Assembly (NCBI RefSeq): GCF_051401765.1
Contig: NC_135071.1
Coordinates: 4,752,961-4,816,960, forward strand
Direction of reading: 5' to 3'
Origin: Calliopsis andreniformis
Lineage: Eukaryota > Arthropoda > Insecta > Hymenoptera > Andrenidae
Length of the DNA: 64,000 nucleotides
The translations under genes were made by a program, and so were the position numbers. Positions 3,348 to 43,367 of the stretch are shown piece after piece. Numbering within the stretch: position 1 is the stretch's first letter; each line of letters opens with the position of its first letter. The notes beneath the pieces are model-generated. The model did not search any database and was not told the origin of the DNA. It was given only the letters and a program-made list of their open reading frames with translations.

Positions 3348-4592
3348 GTGTTGAAATGTCTGACGCTCGCACACCTTTGCTTCGTCATGCCTGCTGTCAG
3401 GCAGAACCGCGATCGTGTGCTGATGCAAGTAATCAGTCGCAAGGTTGTTTTCATAAATGTTGTACTTGATGATTCGAGACGTCGTTCGCCTAATATTACG
3501 CGTAATAGCTCGCGGTACAGTCATTCGCGTGGTCATAGTCCGCGCTCACTGTCTAAGCGGGCTCGCGGATCAGACTATCTACTACATGAAGCATTATACT
3601 CAATTCTAGTGAAATTAAATACGATTGAAGGCAACAACTCCAACGTAAACACCGCCGTCTCGAGTGAAGTGAACGGACGAAACTGTCTTGCCAACCCTGC
3701 GGGCACCCACCGTTCGGTAACAAACAACTCCATAGAAACGCAAGTCCGTGGCGCGATAGGTGTTTCAGACGTTCTGACTCACGAAAAACTAAACCCGGGG
3801 TGTATAGCTAACCTCAATGTAGCTTGTCATACACAAGAAACCAACTTTTCCACAAATAACCGCTACTTACCAGCCAGAAATTCCGACGTTACCGACTCAG
3901 CCAAAGTACTTGTGGAAGCCATTAGATCATTGCAGCCAATCCGATGGCAACACTATTTCGTTTCCAACTTTGATCCTTCTATTCATGATATTACGCAATG
4001 ATGTGAGGAAGTAAACCGTGCACAAACCGCGAATAGCTAGAATGACTGTCGGTGTTTGTCGCGAGTGGCTTCGTGTCTTAAGGGTGATGCAGGGGTTTGG
4101 TTGAACGAATGGGTTACAAACGATCGCACGTGGTGCAACTTTAAACTTGAATTCATGCCCTTGTGTCTCCGTAAGCTAGACTATGCTAATATCTTATATG
4201 AGGCAATGAACACCACATCAGATAAGTACTCGACTTACTCGGAATACGCACGTCGAACTTTACTGCGCCTCAGAATAGTTAAAGGTCTCAGTAATGAACT
4301 TATGACCGTGATAGTAATACGTGGCATTGATAATCCCCAAGTGCGAGCAGCGGCTGCTAATGCTGATCTTACATCCGAAACTTTAGTTACATTTCTGTCT
4401 ATATACGCCAAATCTGGTCGTGGGAAACAAGATCAATCTCGCGATTCTCATCCTTTATTTAAAAAGCGTCCATTACAAGACGCACATGGTAAAAATGATT
4501 TAAAATATTTTTCTTGCAACCGGAGAGGGCATAAAGGACGTAATTGTAGAGAAAGTTATCCCAACCCGAATTCCACACCGGTACTAATTTAA
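3348..4592 (+). pseudogene. Gypsy gag, broken
   Basis: The Gag structural protein is readable in one frame apart from TGA at 3999-4001 and TAG at 4038-4040, both at positions where tryptophan is plausible. The natural start is probably the ATG at 3355 in a neighbouring frame (MSDARTPLLRH), which needs a shift near 3460. Early residues are Arg/Ser-rich (SRRRSPNITRNSSRYSHSRG). The middle has a Retrotrans_gag-like helical region (LKGDAGVWLNEWV, then YSEYARRTLLRLR). A zinc-knuckle-like CNRRGHKGRNC follows, with the first Cys apparently replaced. A second knuckle, CTFCKKPGHTEDIC, lies beyond the MITE at about 4984-5025. Confidence 0.75.
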
Positions 4593-4948
4593 CCCTTTGC
4601 ACTCGAAGTTTATTTTGAGTCATATTACCAGCAACTCGAAGCCATTTGAGTGAAAAGATCATATTCACATGTAAGTTCATGATATACGCATTGAAAGAAA
4701 AGTCATCGTTGTATGTTATTATTTTTATTGTATGTTGTTATTGCTGTTATCGAGAGCATAACAATCTGCGAGCCGCGACCGTCATTTGTCACCAACAGCG
4801 AAATATCCTATAACTAATTTTTACGATTTGTTTTTGTTCTCATGTTAAAAACTGAAAATTAATTCCATTGTCTCCGTAGCGGAGCCCTCGAGTTTGAAGA
4901 CAAATTTAAAATGGCTCCGCTCCGGAGCCCTCGAGTGCAAAGGGTTAA
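4589..4948. mobile_element. piggyBac-type MITE (TTAA target site)
   Basis: A 360-base insertion in the Gypsy gag/pol junction is bounded by TTAA on both sides, with terminal repeats CCCTTTGCACTCGA and TCGAGTGCAAAGGG. The Gypsy frame resumes after it. TTAA duplication and CCCTTT ends are typical of piggyBac non-autonomous elements. It has no coding capacity. Confidence 0.85.
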
Positions 4949-7410
4949 ACCCTAATTTGACATCAAGGATTCCAACTTTGACTTGTACATTCTGTAAAAA
5001 GCCCGGACACACAGAAGATATATGTTTTGCCAAAAACCGTTCCGAACTCTGTAACCAGCATAAAATTAATTTATGCGGTGATAGGTCATCTGAAGTTATC
5101 AGAAACAATGACGTGTCTGCTGCTGTTGTTGAGGGTGTGCCAATGGATGTGCTAATTGACAGTGGCGCACTTAATATATCGCTTGTTTCTTCAGATGTGT
5201 TAAAATACCTACCGTGTCATCCAAAACCAACTCACTGTGTTTTGAAAGGTATTAGTGATTGGGAAATAATTGCTTCATCGTATGTGACGGTGACTATTGA
5301 CTTTAGCGAGATCGCTGTCGAGGCAGATCTTGTTGTCGTACCCTCGTCTTGCATGAATACGTCAATTGTTATCGGAACTGATGTACTTAACCGTGATGGT
5401 GTGACCTACATCCGGACAAAAGACAGACAATACTTAACTCATACCCCTTATGCCTTCCCTAAAGTTAATACGGTGCAAATAGACCGCTCATTCGAAATTA
5501 ACACGCCTCTTCAGAGTGAGGAACGTGAGTCTCTAATGGCAGTTATTAATGAGTTTTCGGACTTTTTGATTACGGGTACAGCTTCAACTACCGTCAAGAC
5601 TGGCAAAATGGAAATTAAACTGACTAACCCTACTCCTGTCGTATATCGTCCATACAAACTTTCTTACGAGGAAAAACTTGGAGTTCGTGAAATCATTAAG
5701 GATCTTCTAGACAAGGGCATTATCAGAGAATCTCAGTCTGAATATGCGAGCCTGATCATACTCGTTAAAAAAAAGGATGGAAGCGACAGGATGTGCGTGG
5801 ATTTCAGAGCACTCAATCAGTTGACGATAAAAGGTCGATATCCCCTCCCGCTGATAAATGATCACATTGATAGATTGGGTAACTACAAATATTTCACCAG
5901 TCTTGACATGGCTACAGGTTTTCACCAAATTCCTATCAGCAAGGAGTCGATTCCTCTTACTGGCTTTGTCACGCCGGAGGGCCATTATGAATATTTAAAA
6001 ATGCCGTATGGACTGACCAACTCCCCAATAGTCTATCAAAGAATTATAAATAATACGTTGCGAAGTCTTATTTACGCAGGATGTGTTCTGGTATATGTTG
6101 ATGACGTATTAATTATGAGTTCGACTATATCGAAGGGCATTATTATTATTGCGTGATGTTCTTAAAACACTTACTGAGGCTGGGTTTTCAATAAATCTTC
6201 GAAAATGCGCATTTCTTGCAACGGAAGTCGAGTACCTAGGAAGAATCGTGAGTCAGGGTCAGGTTAGACCGAGCCCTAGTAAAGTAGAAGCTCTAGTAAA
6301 AGCATCTGTTTCCACAAATGTGAGATAAGTAAGGCAATTTCTCGGCCTTGCTGGCTACTTCCGGCGATACATCAAAGACTACTCCTCTAAAACTTCTTGT
6401 ATAGCTCACTCAACCAAGCAGGGAGTAAACTTTAACTGGGGTTCAGAACAAGAAAACTTTTCAGAACAAGAAGAACTTATCCAGCACTTGACCAGCAAGC
6501 CTGTCCTCGCCATCTTTAACCCGAAGCTATCAACAGAAGTCCACACGGTCGCAAGCAGTGCTGGATACGGTGCTATCCTTCTACATACGCACGAAGATAG
6601 TAAAAATCATGTAATTTCTTACTTCAGCAAAGTGACCCAAGGTACTGAGTCGAAGTACCATTCCTATGAACTGGAGACGCTAGCTGTCGTGAAAGCGTTA
6701 GAGCATTTTCGTCATTATCTTCTTGGGCTGCGCTTCAAAATCGTCACGAACTGCAACGCTCTTAAGGCCACTGAACGCAAAAACGATCTCTTAGCGCGTG
6801 TCACTCACTGGTGGATCTACATGCAAGACTTTGACTTTTCTATCAAGTATAGGAAAGGAGTTATGATGCCTCGTGCTGACTATCTCATGCCTCCTAGTCC
6901 GATACGCTTTGGAAGTTACAGCTGGACTTAAACATTACGAAACAAAAGACTACACAAGTCTATGCACTAAATCTGATGATTGGAACTGATGCTACTACAC
7001 CGGTTATACGTGCTCTCATTCATGATATTGTTGTTGAGAACTCCCAACCTAACAAGCAAGCTTGGCGTTAAATTTTTAGAAGTCGAGCAAGTGAGCTCCT
7101 CAAGAAGAACCAGGAACAACAGGACACCACGGTTAACAAACAAAGGCATCCTCCGCGAATATTTAAAGTAGATGATTTTGTATTTGTTATAAAATACTTA
7201 CAGTCCACAGGAAAACTGGATTCTGGTATGCGAGGCCCCTACAGGGTGATAAAAGTATTGCCCAACGGACGCTACGAACTAAAGCTGCTTAGTGGTGGCT
7301 ATGGCAAAACAACCCAAGTAGCGGCACAGTACATGGTACCGTGGAAAGGCGAGCGGTGTCCAGAAACTTGTGCTGTTTTTTTCGAAAGTAAGTTGCTTAT
7401 CTTATTTTGT
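4949..7410 (+). pseudogene. Gypsy pol (PR-RT-RNase H, integrase remnant), broken
   Basis: Polyprotein of the Gypsy element. Visible in order: aspartic protease motif LIDSGA (about 5152-5169); reverse transcriptase from KKKDGSDRMCVDFRALNQ through LDMATGFHQI to the catalytic YVDD (about 6097-6108); RNase H with AGYGAILL and SYELETLAVVKALEHFRHYL (about 6560-6720); then only the integrase C-terminal MRGPYRVIKVLPNGRYELK (7228-7300). Frames break near 6140 and there is a stop at about 6326. The catalytic core of integrase is absent between about 6930 and 7170. Non-functional. Confidence 0.85.
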
Positions 7411-7422
7411 GATAATGTAGCG

Positions 7423-7587
7423 TGTGTCGCTACTCCTAGGCGTTTAGTCGCCTGTAGCATGTGTCGCTACTCCTAGGCGTTAGTCGCCTGTAGCGTGTGT
7501 CGCTACTCCTAGGCGCTATTCGCCTTAGCGTGTGTCACTACTCTCGGGCATTAGTCGCCCGCAACATGCGTCGCTCCACCTGACGCA
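7423..7587 (+). repeat. Tandem 36-38 base repeats, each a stem-loop, in Gypsy 3' region
   Basis: Four tandem units (gtgtcgctactcctaggcg...) are followed by a fifth hairpin. Each folds. Unit 1 is 7429-7458: GCTAC/GTAGC outside, AGGCG/CGCCT inside. Unit 2 is 7466-7494 with the same stems. Unit 3 is 7502-7529: GCTA/TAGC and AGGCG/CGCCT. Unit 4 is 7545-7561: CGGGC/GCCCG. A final one is 7567-7587: TGCGTC/GACGCA. Another candidate is 7737-7765 (GTAGC/GCTAC around CCTG/CAGG). Stems change between units while pairing is kept. The array lies downstream of pol and upstream of the 3' LTR. Confidence 0.8.
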
Positions 7588-38490: not shown

Positions 38491-38624
38491 AAGGGGGCTT
38501 ACGTGCGAAATCAAGTTATCGAGAAAACAGCTGTTAAAGGTAAACAATTCGTTTCGTCAGTTTCTCGTTAGTTGTTCCCTTTTCTCCGCGTTGCCTGGTG
38601 TCTAACTATATTCAAGGACGTCGA

Positions 38625-38953
38625 TGTTAGAAATTTATTGAAATTATGTTCTAACTCTTGAGCGATTATTACAATGATTATAAGCTGACAATGAATTCGT
38701 CAAATCAGGCGGAAGAATTCCATCGATGTTGCTAGTAGCGATGCTCGAGCCAGAAGGGAGGGCCCTACGCGTGGGGTCCCTTTCTGCACGCAGTTTCGGC
38801 TACGTTGCCGAGGTGCGTTGTCTCCCTGGGTTTTTCCCTGGGTTTTCCCCCGGGGTTGCCGCTTGCCCTCGCGGGGTGCATTTCCGCCTCGGTGGTTGCT
38901 TCCGGGGAGTGCCACTCAGGTCGTTTAGGCGGCAATTTTGAAAATTTCTTACA
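38625..38953 (-). repeat. 3' LTR of gag-only retrotransposon
   Basis: A 329-base LTR whose partner at 41297-41625 differs by two substitutions as counted by eye (aggcgGaag/aggcgCaag and ccaTcgatg/ccaCcgatg). Element orientation is minus, so this is the 3' LTR. Target duplication TCGA lies at 38621-38624 and 41626-41629. Confidence 0.92.
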
Positions 38954-39033
38954 TTCGGCCATCCTGACGATACGTCTGTCCTCAGACGCTCTCTCGAAGA
39001 GGGCACGTTCTGCATTGCGACGTCCATCGTCGC

Positions 39034-39351
39034 CCTGATGAGCTGAGCGCTACAACGCTCGCTGCAATGATGAAATCCACCGTAGTCCTGATGAGGTGAG
39101 CGCTACAACGCTCGTTGTAATGATGAAGTCCATCGTAGTCCTGATGAGGTGAGCGCTACAACGCTCGTTGTAGTGATGAAGTCCATCGTAGTCCTGATGA
39201 GGTGAGCGCTACAACGCTCGCTGCAATGGTGAAATCCACCGTAGTCCTGGTGAGGTGAGCGCTACAACGCTCGTGGTAGTGATGAAGTCCATCGTTGCCC
39301 TGATGAGGCGAGCGCTACAAAGCTCGCTGCAGTGGTGAAGCCCAACGATGA
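39034..39351 (-). repeat. Six 53-base tandem repeats, each with stem-loops
   Basis: Units start (CCTG) at 39034, 39087, 39140, 39193, 39246 and 39299, an exact 53-base period. Each contains GAGCG-CTACAA-CGCTC; the sixth has changed but pairs in a shifted register (GCGAGC/GCTCGC). A second stem per unit is GATG/CATC in some copies and GGTG/CACC in another. Frames of 129-135 codons through here are translated repeats, not genes. Confidence 0.9.
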
Positions 39352-39621
39352 CCTGAAGATTGAGCAAACCAATGCTCGCTGAAGACAAGGCACCCTGTGC
39401 CTCGACGAAGTCCAACGATGACCTGAAGATTGAGCAAACCAATGCTCGCTGAAGACAAGGCACCCTGTGCCTCGACGAAGTCCAACGATGACCTGAAGAT
39501 TGAGCAAACCAATGCTCGCTGAAGACAAGGCACCCTGTGCCTCGACGAAGTCCAACGATGACCTGAAGATTGAGCAAACCAATGCTCGCTGAAGACAAGG
39601 CACCCTGTATTCGGTTATTTT
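39352..39621 (-). repeat. Four 70-base tandem repeats with two stem-loops each
   Basis: Units start at 39352, 39422, 39492 and 39562, almost identical. Each has GAGCA-AACCAA-TGCTC and, in the first three, AGGCAC-CCT-GTGCCT (39388-39402, 39458-39472, 39528-39542). The fourth unit diverges after CACCCTGT. Confidence 0.9.
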
Positions 39622-40116
39622 GACCTGACGCCCAGCGTCATTCAAAATAACCTCCGACTGCCTCAACACAACACCCAGTGCTTGTTTCGGTCAATCGTTG
39701 TTCGCTGATTCTGCGATACCCAGTATCACATCGGAATCAACTTGACCTGGGACACCCAGTGTCCACCCTCGGTCCACGACCTAGCGCACCCAGTGCCCAT
39801 CCTCGGCCAACTCATTCATGATCGCTGCGTTCCTCTCCTGCTGCGGCATGGTACCACGGCGCGCTGCCCGTTGTCGCTCTCCCGTACGTCGTTCACTGCG
39901 GTGAGGTACCCCAGGTACCTCGTCGCCTGGTCCTTGACGTATGGTATCGCTCGCCGCAGCTTCCGATCGCCTCGTTAGGGGTAGTCCCAGACTATCCCTC
40001 AGCGATTCTGTTTCTGCGCAAACATAAATAATAGATATAAATAAATATCAACAATAGTCATCGGAATCTCCAGGCCACTGGGCCTGCCAGTTCCCTATGA
40101 ACGTGTCAACGTTCAT
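39613..40116 (-). other. Non-repetitive array of stem-loops with a constant CCA loop
   Basis: Perfect short stems with loop CCA on the plus strand (UGG in the sense RNA): 39613-39652 (TGACGC/GCGTCA, inside an 11-base outer stem GGTTATTTTGA); 39668-39685 (CAC/GTG plus ACAA/TTGT); 39706-39739 (GATAC/GTATC inside TGATTC/GAATCA); 39750-39764 (GGACAC/GTGTCC); 39786-39796 (GCAC/GTGC); 39903-39921 (GAGGTACC/GGTACCTC); 39978-39998 (TAGTC/GACTA). Two more have other loops: 40071-40086 (CAGGCC/GGCCTG) and 40097-40116 (ATGAACGT/ACGTTCAT). Similar ones near the LTR are 38973-38988 and 39017-39033. Stem sequences are unrelated, so this is not duplication. Confidence 0.85.
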
Positions 40117-41090
40117 CTCCCGCCATCGTCGCCTGGTATCGGTGGTGGTGGTTGCCTCCACCGCGAAGGTCCCGCTGCCGACTTCCGTTGTGAGTCTCCC
40201 ATCGGCATTTCTCCAAGATTCCGCATTAGGGAATATAGTTCGTTCACGTCGGTGACTTTGGCTGACCGTATCGAACGGGCTATGGCAGCATCCGGTATGC
40301 CACCGATCACGGCATCAATTAGGTGCTCATCCGGGATCACCAACTCGAGTTTCCGCAGCTTCTCGAGCTTCTGGAAACAATAATCCCCGAGCCGCTGCCC
40401 CGGTTTCGCCCTGTACACCGCAACGTCCTCCAAACGTTGGCTAAAAGACATTACGTTCCGAAATTGCTTCTTCAGCAAACCCCGAATGTCCCGCCAGGCT
40501 GTGGTCACATCCTGGCGTGCGTCGAACCACCTCCTAGCATGTCCTTTTAGCCGCGTCGTAATCAGCCGCATCACGGCGTCATCGCTCCACCCGAATTTTT
40601 CGGCCAGAGCGTCCACTTGTTTGACCCAACGTTCAATGGTTGGGTCCTCCACTTCCGGGTCATAAACCGGTATCAATAGTTCATCTCCCGGTCGAGCGCG
40701 ACAGGGCACTCGCGAAGACGATCGCGACCGTTGTCTGCCCAACTTCTCCACCAATTGTTCCAATCGGTCCAACCGCTGCATGATGGGGTTGGACGCCATG
40801 GGTGGCGTGCGAGCACCCGAATCCGACCGCGAACGTGAGCGTACGCGCGGCGGAGAACGGGAACGTGGACGCCGATGCGGACGCGTAGAAGAACGCGCAC
40901 GTGAACGCGTACGTGAACGCGTACGTGAACGCGACATCGAACGCGCTGTACGGCTTAGCGAGGCCTCTATTAATCGCTCTAAGCGTTCTAAACGAGCGTT
41001 CTGCTCCCGCACACCCTCTTCGATTGTATCCGAAGAGCTGTCGTGTCGCTTTTTCGTCGTTTCGTTATCACGACGAGAGTTACGACCCAT
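40113..41090 (-). CDS. Gag of the gag-only retrotransposon, intact
   Basis: 325 codons from the ATG at 41090 (MGRNSRRDNETTKKRHDSSS). N-terminal heptad-like helix (NARLERLERLIEASL); a strongly Arg/Ser-rich RS-type segment (about residues 50-95, partly encoded by a tandem gtacgtgaacgc repeat at 40898-40925); a second short helix (MQRLDRLEQLVEKLG); then a Retrotrans_gag-like domain (about 140-290: PTIERWVKQVDALAEKFGW, GHARRWFDA, LKKQFRN, DYCFQKLEKLRKLEL). No zinc knuckle and no downstream protease or pol. The stop codon (40113-40115) lies in an 8-base-pair hairpin. Gag would form particles in the cytoplasm with enzymes supplied in trans. Confidence 0.85.
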   Translation of the reverse strand: MGRNSRRDNETTKKRHDSSSDTIEEGVREQNARLERLERLIEASLSRTARSMSRSRTRSRTRSRARSSTRPHRRPRSRSPPRVRSRSRSDSGARTPPMASNPIMQRLDRLEQLVEKLGRQRSRSSSRVPCRARPGDELLIPVYDPEVEDPTIERWVKQVDALAEKFGWSDDAVMRLITTRLKGHARRWFDARQDVTTAWRDIRGLLKKQFRNVMSFSQRLEDVAVYRAKPGQRLGDYCFQKLEKLRKLELVIPDEHLIDAVIGGIPDAAIARSIRSAKVTDVNELYSLMRNLGEMPMGDSQRKSAAGPSRWRQPPPPIPGDDGGR

Positions 41091-41296
41091 CTTGTCACTT
41101 ATTATCACTACTTATACACTATTATATACACAATATGCACAATAGAGTCACTGTCTCTTCCACTATATACACTATATACGCAGCTCACAGCGAAATGGCG
41201 TCTCTATCGCGTCACCGTGAGCGGAATATTTTGTCGGCCGTTCCACACGAAATCCGCGAACGCGGCGCAGCACGTGGCTATGTCCCACTTCTGATA

Positions 41297-41625
41297 TGTT
41301 AGAAATTTATTGAAATTATGTTCTAACTCTTGAGCGATTATTACAATGATTATAAGCTGACAATGAATTCGTCAAATCAGGCGCAAGAATTCCACCGATG
41401 TTGCTAGTAGCGATGCTCGAGCCAGAAGGGAGGGCCCTACGCGTGGGGTCCCTTTCTGCACGCAGTTTCGGCTACGTTGCCGAGGTGCGTTGTCTCCCTG
41501 GGTTTTTCCCTGGGTTTTCCCCCGGGGTTGCCGCTTGCCCTCGCGGGGTGCATTTCCGCCTCGGTGGTTGCTTCCGGGGAGTGCCACTCAGGTCGTTTAG
41601 GCGGCAATTTTGAAAATTTCTTACA
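41297..41625 (-). repeat. 5' LTR of gag-only retrotransposon
   Basis: In minus orientation it reads TGTAAGAAATTTTC...ATTTCTAACA. The leader 41091-41296 lies between it and the gag ATG. See the partner LTR at 38625-38953. Confidence 0.92.
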
Positions 41626-43367
41626 TCGAGTGTTGTTTCTGCTCGGAATATTATCCTAGTTAATCGCGTTAAGTTGCTAATTTCGGATTTCTAAACGAGT
41701 AACACTGAAAAAGTGAGTTTACAAATGTTATCATTGTTATCGTGCCGGCCGTCTTTTTCAGAAAAATTAGTGTTGATGAGGAGTTTAGTGCCATCCACAG
41801 TCAATATTTCCCTGAAAACGATGAAGACAATGACGGGTCCGATGATTATGTTAGTTCGAATGGCGATGATAATGAACTATATTTGTCTTAGGCAGAAGAT
41901 GATATGGAACAAAGTTTCGTTAGGATGGATGTATCTGCTGTCGATGAAGAGGAAGAGGAGCTGGTAACCAAATTTCTCTCAAAAGATTGTTGTAATAACA
42001 AATGCCAAACAATTATACCACGAAAAATGATCGAGAATAGGAGAAACAATTGTTTAGAATTAGCAAAGAATGAACTCGATTTAGTGATACTAAGTCATAT
42101 CGAAGCCGGAATGATATGTAATGAAGAATTAGAAAGTGTTTATTCGAAGCTTGTCGAACGGAAGAAATATGGACAGAGAAAGGATAGAGAAGTTACGAGG
42201 CATAAGATCGATTTTACCTTCTACAACGTATCTGTTTGTCGTTCGCTTTTCCTTTTTGTACATGCATGTGGGAAGAAGCGTTACGAACACTTAGTACATC
42301 ATTTTCAAGCACACGGTACAACAGTACGAGTACATGGACTAGCGAGTAAACCACCTACAAATCCGAAAGCGTTTAAACCGGCTAATATCCAAAAAGCTGT
42401 CAAATTCATCGAGTATACAGCCGATCTATTGGCTCTTCCATTGCCGGGACGACTTCCCAAATTTAAAGACTATCGCGTCATGAAATTACCATCGAACGAG
42501 ACAAAGTCCTCCATTTATCGAAAATACATTGCTTCCCTCAATGATGACGAACCGAAGATGAGTAATCGCAGTTTTCGACGCATATGGGCCAAGTACATAC
42601 CCTACGTTACAGTAATGAAACCGGCGGATGATCTCTGCGATATCTGTCGTGGTAATTAGGTCATTTTTTGCTTATTCTAAGGTTGTGTCAAACGCAGATA
42701 TTGAATTGAGTCTTCTTTTTCAATAGGAAACACGCTATCGATTACGCAAGTCAAAAACGTTCCTGACGTTGAACGTGAAGAGAAGCTGAATCAATTTCTC
42801 AATCATCTCCACAAAACCCGAAATCAATGAACGTACTATCAAAGTTGATGTAGAAATACTGAAGATACGGCAACGGTTCTGTCGTTCAATTTCGCCCAAA
42901 TAGTTCATTACCCTGTTAGTCCACAACAACCTGGTACGACTTACTTCAAGGCAACGAAAAAGTGCGCAGTCTTTAGAATTACAAATGAAAAACAAAAAGT
43001 TCAGGTGAGGATTTCGAACTGTATCGTACGAACTCAAATATCTTGCTTTTATAAAGGACCGAATTGCGTCGTGAGCATCTTGCACTATCACCTGCAAACC
43101 TATAAAGAAATCGAAACTTTGGTTCTTTTCTGCGACAATTGCGTTGGGCAAAATAAAAATAACGTTCTGCTATCGTATCTGCAATGGCGAGTGGCTCGAA
43201 GACTGAACAAAACGATTTTATTCAATTTCCTCCTTACGGGTCATACGAAATTCGCGCCGGATCGTTACTTCGGTATTTTCAAGGCGAAGTACGCCGCATA
43301 GTGATCGATTTCGCGATTTTAGCGGGACAAAACCTATAATTCGAAAAGTGCTATATGCACGCTATTG

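Follow-up and report, generated by a model that had tools for sequence, protein, structure and literature searches.

The window analysed here is a stretch of 64,000 nucleotides from the genome of the hymenopteran Calliopsis andreniformis (contig NC_135071.1, positions 4,752,961 to 4,816,960 of the forward strand). Its minus strand carries a gag-only long terminal repeat (LTR) retrotransposon and, behind the coding sequence of this element and ahead of its 3' LTR, an array of short hairpins that present the same loop, CUGGG in the gag-sense RNA, on unrelated stems. This array is real and far above chance. Comparable arrays sit in other elements of the same genome, and their loops are constant, or nearly so, within a family, while they differ between three sister families. 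We tentatively favour, at rather less than even confidence, the view that the array would act as a multivalent signal of RNA identity, used in packaging, and that the Gag protein of the family itself would read it. Its main and strongest rival is a set of recognition elements for the host protein Smaug.

The hairpins are as follows, with the loops in brackets; those labelled r70 belong to neighbouring 70-bp repeats:

39388..39402, minus strand: r70 hairpin AGGCA[CAGGG]TGCCT
39458..39472, minus strand: r70 hairpin AGGCA[CAGGG]TGCCT
39528..39542, minus strand: r70 hairpin AGGCA[CAGGG]TGCCT
39626..39640, minus strand: h1 TGACG[CUGGG]CGTCA, within an outer 11-bp stem
39672..39680, minus strand: h2 CA[CUGGG]TG, with a G-U extension in the gag sense only
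39715..39727, minus strand: h3 GATA[CUGGG]TATC, with a U-G extension in the gag sense that is U-A in the copy L013
39750..39764, minus strand: h4 GGACA[CUGGG]TGTCC
39786..39796, minus strand: h5 GCA[CUGGG]TGC, with a mismatch further out in the window copy
39903..39921, minus strand: h6 GAGGTAC[CUGGG]GTACCTC
39982..39994, minus strand: h7 TAGT[CUGGG]ACTA

An earlier note, made from the letters of this DNA, had described seven stems closed by C and G around CCA. All seven exist, as C-CCA-G on the plus strand and, in the gag sense, as C-UGG-G. Most are perfect, as it had stated, but h2 has only three perfect pairs (C-G included) and h5 meets a G-G mismatch in the gag sense. The inventory of the CUGGG hairpins stood; the three CAGGG hairpins of the 70-bp repeats had been missed. 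The argument that duplication cannot explain the series was too strong, as h4 and h5 belong to a direct repeat of 34 nt with 79% identity and relatives contain tandem units. On the gag-sense strand of 38624-41640, the seven CUGGG sites are all in the array, each with at least two pairs, and none is in gag. When folded with 75-nt flanks, five of the seven stems form with a probability of at least 0.89 (h4 reaches 0.22 and h5 0.00); with the entire 3' part folded, h2 comes to 0.72 and h4 to 0.47, and the opposite strand likewise forms five of the seven. A CAGGC hairpin at 40077-40091 was considered as a further member and dropped, its stem probability being close to zero.

Between 39608 and 40005, five CUGGG sites have a perfect stem of at least four pairs outside the pentaloop, against 0.003 expected, and seven have at least two pairs, against 0.032; in neither case did any of 2000 dinucleotide shuffles match the array, so that it passed the control that the earlier note had proposed. 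Correcting for the post-hoc choice of the loop (any loop of 3-8 nt, distinct stems, at least three pairs) leaves six hairpins, with a maximum of four in 1500 shuffles. In 400-nt windows moved in steps of 100 across the 64 kb (stem of at least four pairs), the place of the array alone exceeds three.

Further evidence comes from the other copies. A search of the genome (1.02 Gb in 489 contigs) located the array at no fewer than nine loci, the window included: in gag-only copies (window, L016, L017, L011), in pol-bearing copies (L014/L015, L009, L012, L064/L010) and beside a gag fragment (L013). The earlier proposal that it is a trait of a gag-only parasite is therefore not supported, since pol-bearing copies carry it. 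None of the latter is claimed to be intact: L014 has a frame broken in reverse transcriptase and L012 has two overlapping pol frames. L009 has an open integrase frame of 428 amino acids with H2C2 and rve domains. The 70 CTGGG sites of the nine loci reduce to 23 distinct 15-mers, all of which were kept in the covariation test, including four that are not hairpins; the rows are related by descent. Helix cells are paired in 80.9% of cases against 59.1% after shuffling, two-sided cells number 24 against 9.1, and the covariation score is 0.659 against 0.261 (in each case 0 of 500 shuffles reach the observed value), with at most 54.8% paired cells in slid controls. The stem halves do not, overall, mutate independently, which had been named as the outcome that would count against selection. 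The stems at the place of h5 read GGGCA/TGCCC in L002-L004, GGGTA/TGCCC in L009 and GGGTA/TACCC in a unit of L013, a series that passes via a G-U pair.

The gag-sense RNA is the favoured strand, because G-U cells outnumber A-C cells in that sense: 12 against 2 in the 19 of the 23 15-mers that are hairpins (several cells being common by descent), 6 against 2 in family 2 and 6 against 3 in family 3, two sister families described below. In the window alone the same test is nearly a tie (h2, h3 and r70 speak for the gag sense, h6 and h7 for the other), and the preference is thus settled only through the other copies. Loops vary little: the place aligned to h6 reads CUGGA in L012, the same CUGGA sequence is found in L009, one L013 unit has CCGGG, and decayed loops are seen at h2 of L012 (ATGGG), h4 of L010 (GTGGG) and h6 of L013 (CUGAA). 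Since stems change with pairing kept and G-U pairs favour the gag sense, the array is an RNA feature under selection; in this the compensatory changes across copies agree with the earlier proposal that a stem showing a constant loop is selected.

Are such loops a property of this family, here family 1? An integrase search gave 99 matches, and the downstream regions of 13 of them, mostly the most similar, were inspected. In family 2 (L048, L049, L056, L057; integrase 64-70% identical) arrays occupy the same place, after pol, and present different loops (C-[AACG]-G, C-[GACG]-G, C-[GACGU]-G, C-[AACGU]-G, C-[AAAGU]-G and C-[GAAGU]-G), carried by stems that are mostly unlike one another. Its C-RAMG-(U)-G sites number 27, of which 15 are distinct and 13 have at least four pairs, C-G included. 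Perfect stems of at least five pairs with such a loop number four in L048, against a shuffle mean of 0.015 (none of 1000 reaches it), and none on the antisense strand. Family 3 (L050, L051; integrase 60%) displays 31-bp tandem hairpins right after pol (L050:127-460, L051:130-400) whose outer stem pairs covary, and seven of the 11 L050 units have the loop AGGGUAAWC (AGGGUAAAC or AGGGUAAUC). By eye, no constant-loop array is present in family 4 (L052, L054) or in the more distant L055, L058, L059 and L060, and L053 seems to have lost its array.

Elsewhere in the window, downstream of a decayed Ty3-type gag-pol on the plus strand (about 3348-7400), 36-bp tandem repeats at 7416-7575 form another hairpin array in which GTAGCG[TGTGT]CGCTAC alternates with AGGCG[TTAGT]CGCC, with variants that include CGGGC[ATTAGTC]GCCCG. 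It may belong to yet another family, one that has loops of its own.

According to the reading that we favour, the genomic RNA of a Ty3/gypsy-type LTR retrotransposon would be marked, in its 3' untranslated part, by a structured and multivalent identity tag, namely the array. Its numerous short hairpins would each present one loop (CUGGG in family 1), of which the reader would see the loop and little of the stem, and their number would act by avidity. The reader would be the Gag of the family, with its capsid and arginine/serine-rich N-terminal part, its nucleocapsid, or both, selecting the right RNA into particles; other loops in sister families would keep the RNAs of the families apart. The gag-only window element would be packaged via the tag with the Gag of its relatives: its own Gag, which had been proposed as the likely reader, is without the zinc knuckle that relatives keep. 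A broader proposal, to which we give somewhat less credence, is that stems drift while the loop, nearly constant within a family and replaced with Gag in sisters, would constitute an orthogonal self-recognition code inherited by gag-only parasites.

Gag is favoured as the reader because sister families have other Gags as well as other loops. The Gag of family 1 (L014) has one CCHC knuckle, and those of family 2 (L061) and family 3 (L063) have two CCHC motifs by eye, of which Pfam scores one zf-CCHC each. Loop type and Gag differ together in the three families; the C2 element described next (in its knuckle) and L013 (in its capsid) keep the loop despite divergence. As would be expected of a packaging signal, the array is structured RNA with an unpaired G in the loop, on the sense strand. 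The C2 element, L064/L010 (C2:863600-873500), is instructive. The N-terminal part and capsid of its gag are 91-94% identical to family 1 at the nucleotide level and its array 92-96%, its protease to integrase part is 68-71% identical, and its LTR gives no nucleotide match. This mosaic suggests template switching between families and fits a partnership of Gag and array. Three gag-only junctions (that of the window and L016, that of L011 and that of L017) fall short of the first hairpin by 138, 352 and 21 nt, and all spare the array.

Several observations weigh against a Gag-read packaging tag. In the C2 element no nucleotide match links the knuckle stretch to family 1 (at the protein level 50% over 54 amino acids), and the array is the same; the zinc knuckle is for this reason disfavoured as the reader. 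The association of gag and array in that element can also be plain recombination with a gag-only RNA in which both are joined; two switches involving such an RNA would yield this mosaic too. L013 has a capsid fragment of 67% nucleotide identity, yet its array stands at 93%. Gag-only copies were found through a search with the array, so that its retention in them is biased, and two of the three junctions (window/L016 and L011) have the same 5' edge. In the covariation test, pairs with two-sided change number 5 against 3.9, a value reached by 107 of 500 shuffles, with rows that share descent. The consensus loop and the zone of family 2 were set after looking at the sequences, and L056, a member of that family, has a CAGGG hairpin, GGGTG[CAGGG]CACCC, at a place like that of h5 (flank homology judged by eye). 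In family 3, four of the 11 L050 units deviate from AGGGUAAWC, and the shuffle test, limited to loops of up to 8 nt and hence not valid for the loop of this family, gives 4 hairpins against a mean of 2.19. The whole comparison comes down to three families drawn from 13 of 99 integrase matches. It is the C2 knuckle without nucleotide match, together with family 3 without a valid chance test, that slightly lowered our confidence in packaging.

The GACG loops of gammaretroviruses and the GGAG loop of human immunodeficiency virus 1 belong to packaging hairpins that bind Gag. The retroviral psi sits in the 5' leader, which is not where the array lies, and known packaging sites such as the purine loop and primer-binding site (PBS) of mouse mammary tumor virus (MMTV) are near the 5' end, which again speaks against packaging. 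Retroviral Gag binds unpaired purines in packaging hairpins, with the purine loop and PBS of MMTV as an example (PMC8096270). The likeness is one of short stems with unpaired purines, read in known cases by the virus' own Gag, and family 2 even uses GACG and AACG loops. The difference is that the hairpins described here come in many copies, are 3' untranslated, and have unrelated stems and a loop that changes between sisters. The dispersed, degenerate packaging signals of satellite tobacco necrosis virus 1 (STNV-1) likewise consist of several stem-loops with a common loop motif and variable stems, but our array has a nearly invariant loop and is clustered in the 3' untranslated region (UTR); the comparable proposal for STNV-1 did not hold up in vivo, a further caution for us (PMC6475782).

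The main rival, which the earlier note overlooked, holds that the SAM domain of host Smaug binds CNGGN loops on any stem and would repress, destabilise or localise the RNA, perhaps in a manner tied to the germ line. All seven CUGGG and three CAGGG loops fit CNGGN, on stems as unspecific as those of Smaug sites. Published descriptions tell of a CNGGN pentaloop, an unspecific stem, a place in the 3' UTR and several copies (PMC4053848; PMC9893680), and of a CNGGN0-3 loop in which CUGG surpasses the other three and pentaloops are best (PMC4053848). The variants follow suit, with U, A or C (CCGGG in L013) as base 2 and G or A (CUGGA in L009, L012) as base 5. A pairing score for CNGG sites, which corresponds to the first step of the published method and is not on its scale (PMC4053848), amounts to 4.30 in the array. 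No more than 2.54 is reached in 400 shuffles, and no more than 1.61 in 302 further stretches of 398 nt taken from both strands of the window; the array itself scores 0 when read in antisense.

Against Smaug, the present case differs from described recognition elements in its density, with seven to ten of them close together in a retroelement, and in the other loops of sister families. On the sense strand of the sisters, CNGGN with at least four pairs occurs at 0 of 17 sites in L048, 0 of 11 in L049, 0 of 12 in L050, 0 of 10 in L051 and 0 of 18 in L052, and once in L056, in a count that left out L053-L055 and L057-L060. Loop type is not kept across sister families, L056 excepted, although this is our own yardstick and no part of the definition of a Smaug site. 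In four of seven hairpins the loop is preceded by A, not by the favoured G. Positions C1, G3 and G4 are not clearly less variable than the free loop positions: 5 of 21 columns vary in the former and 4 of 14 in the latter (2 of 7 at N2 and 2 of 7 at N5). The underlying alignment is shaky; it leaves out L009, and its quality near h6 and h7 is poor for L012 and L013. Smaug, moreover, usually silences, and the benefit to the element is not obvious. A search of the genome for the PHAT domain of Smaug gave no match, but as its controls gave none either, it has no bearing on the question. All considered, Smaug is the alternative to be taken most seriously, with perhaps one chance in a handful or slightly better.

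Another host factor, involved in localisation, export, stability or translation, might read the loops, the families having switched factors. Location in the 3' UTR speaks for it, family-specific loops are compatible with it, and pol-bearing and gag-only copies have the array alike. To be sure, the loops of families 2 and 3 suggest no nameable candidate, and repeated wholesale switching of loops at the same place would be easier with a co-evolving protein of the element. It would be more natural for the reader to vary from family to family, with Gag as the obvious candidate, because the loop of a conserved host protein should persist in sisters, and mostly it does not. We deem this second host-based possibility unlikely, a little more so than Smaug. 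A structural 3' end element, in which stems serve dimerisation, decay protection or a pause in reverse transcription and the loop is incidental, would agree with the fold of the whole array, which beats 100 shuffles with a z of -5.2 in the gag sense and -7.0 on the other strand (good on both because the hairpins are palindromes), but loop constancy is the strongest signal and CUGGG is not self-complementary, which makes this account quite improbable. Most improbable of all is a mutational by-product, by which tandem duplication and template switching would yield short palindromes in the absence of selection: parts of this repeat-rich zone are indeed tandem duplicates, but pairing and loop persist while stems differ, G-U prevails over A-C in the sense strand, and loops are nearly constant within families and different between them.

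Cis-acting packaging hairpins are of an already known kind. A 3' untranslated array with a loop fixed within and switched between sisters is not named in the literature searched (titles and starts of abstracts, few subscription papers); there we found no paper on a hairpin array in a gag retrotransposon and, for Smaug recognition element combined with retrotransposon, none with either term in its title or abstract. The way in which an LTR retrotransposon distinguishes its RNA from the RNA of near relatives is, to our knowledge, a largely unsettled matter. This genome offers a ready-made specificity experiment, since it has three sister families whose arrays are laid out alike and show different loops. 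Should Smaug be the reader, a retroelement would be carrying a whole array of binding sites for a maternal RNA regulator.

The element that carries the array in the window has, on the minus strand, the order LTR, primer site, a single Gag open reading frame (ORF), some 1.16 kb of untranslated sequence and the other LTR. Its features are:

38621..38624: target-site duplication TCGA, other copy at 41626-41629
38625..38953, minus strand: LTR of 329 bp (3' LTR in the gag sense), differing from the other LTR at 2 of 329 positions
39022..39344: about six tandem 53-bp repeats, resembling the 70-bp unit minus its CAGGG hairpin
39337..39608: about four tandem 70-bp repeats, the last hairpin broken at the junction
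40113..41090, minus strand: Gag ORF of 325 amino acids with a capsid-like region and no zinc knuckle, its tail coming from the end of pol through an internal deletion
41282..41296, minus strand: PBS TATCAGAAGTGGGAC, directly adjoining the 5' LTR
41297..41625, minus strand: LTR of 329 bp (5' LTR in the gag sense)

Near-identical LTRs, a target duplication and gag without pol identify it as a gag-only, non-autonomous LTR retrotransposon, and its PBS TATCAGAAGTGGGAC is presumably of the tRNA-Leu type. The Gag matches Retrotrans_gag weakly (E 0.018, below the cut-off) and has clear relatives, with 10 matches among 7994 scored candidates, including proteins of Anthophora plagiata and Aphidius gifuensis; none was confirmed in viral contigs or in contigs of prokaryote genomes. 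CCHC-type motifs lie past the shared region in five of the ten (P0001, P0002, P0004, P0009, P0010), and the window Gag ends ahead of the region where relatives keep them. Its last residues, PGDDGGR, resemble the end of the L009 integrase, GGDDDGR; this likeness and the deletion junction show that the window element is an internal deletion. Another gag-only copy, L017:3730-4848, has an open frame of 373 codons that keeps the zinc knuckle and is joined 21 nt before the first hairpin.

Plant TR-GAG is a known non-autonomous LTR element. PbTRIM of ants shares with ours LTRs, a 4-bp target duplication, a PBS of the Leu-tRNA type and the loss of pol; it differs in having no coding region, and the word hairpin is absent from the text of its paper (PMC3532108).

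As for the repeats at 39022-39608, the 70-bp unit aligns to the 53-bp unit plus an inserted CAGGG hairpin, and a hairpin common to both goes from GAGCG/CGCTC to GAGCA/TGCTC with pairing kept. A protein search with an ORF of the repeat zone gave no match. A hammerhead identity was considered for CTGATGAG in the 53-bp repeats and discarded as far as recognised ones go, as the window has no match at Rfam gathering thresholds. Finally, a 44-nt stretch upstream of the array in L009 (L009:1980-2023) recurs at some 30 other places, some of them near integrase matches.
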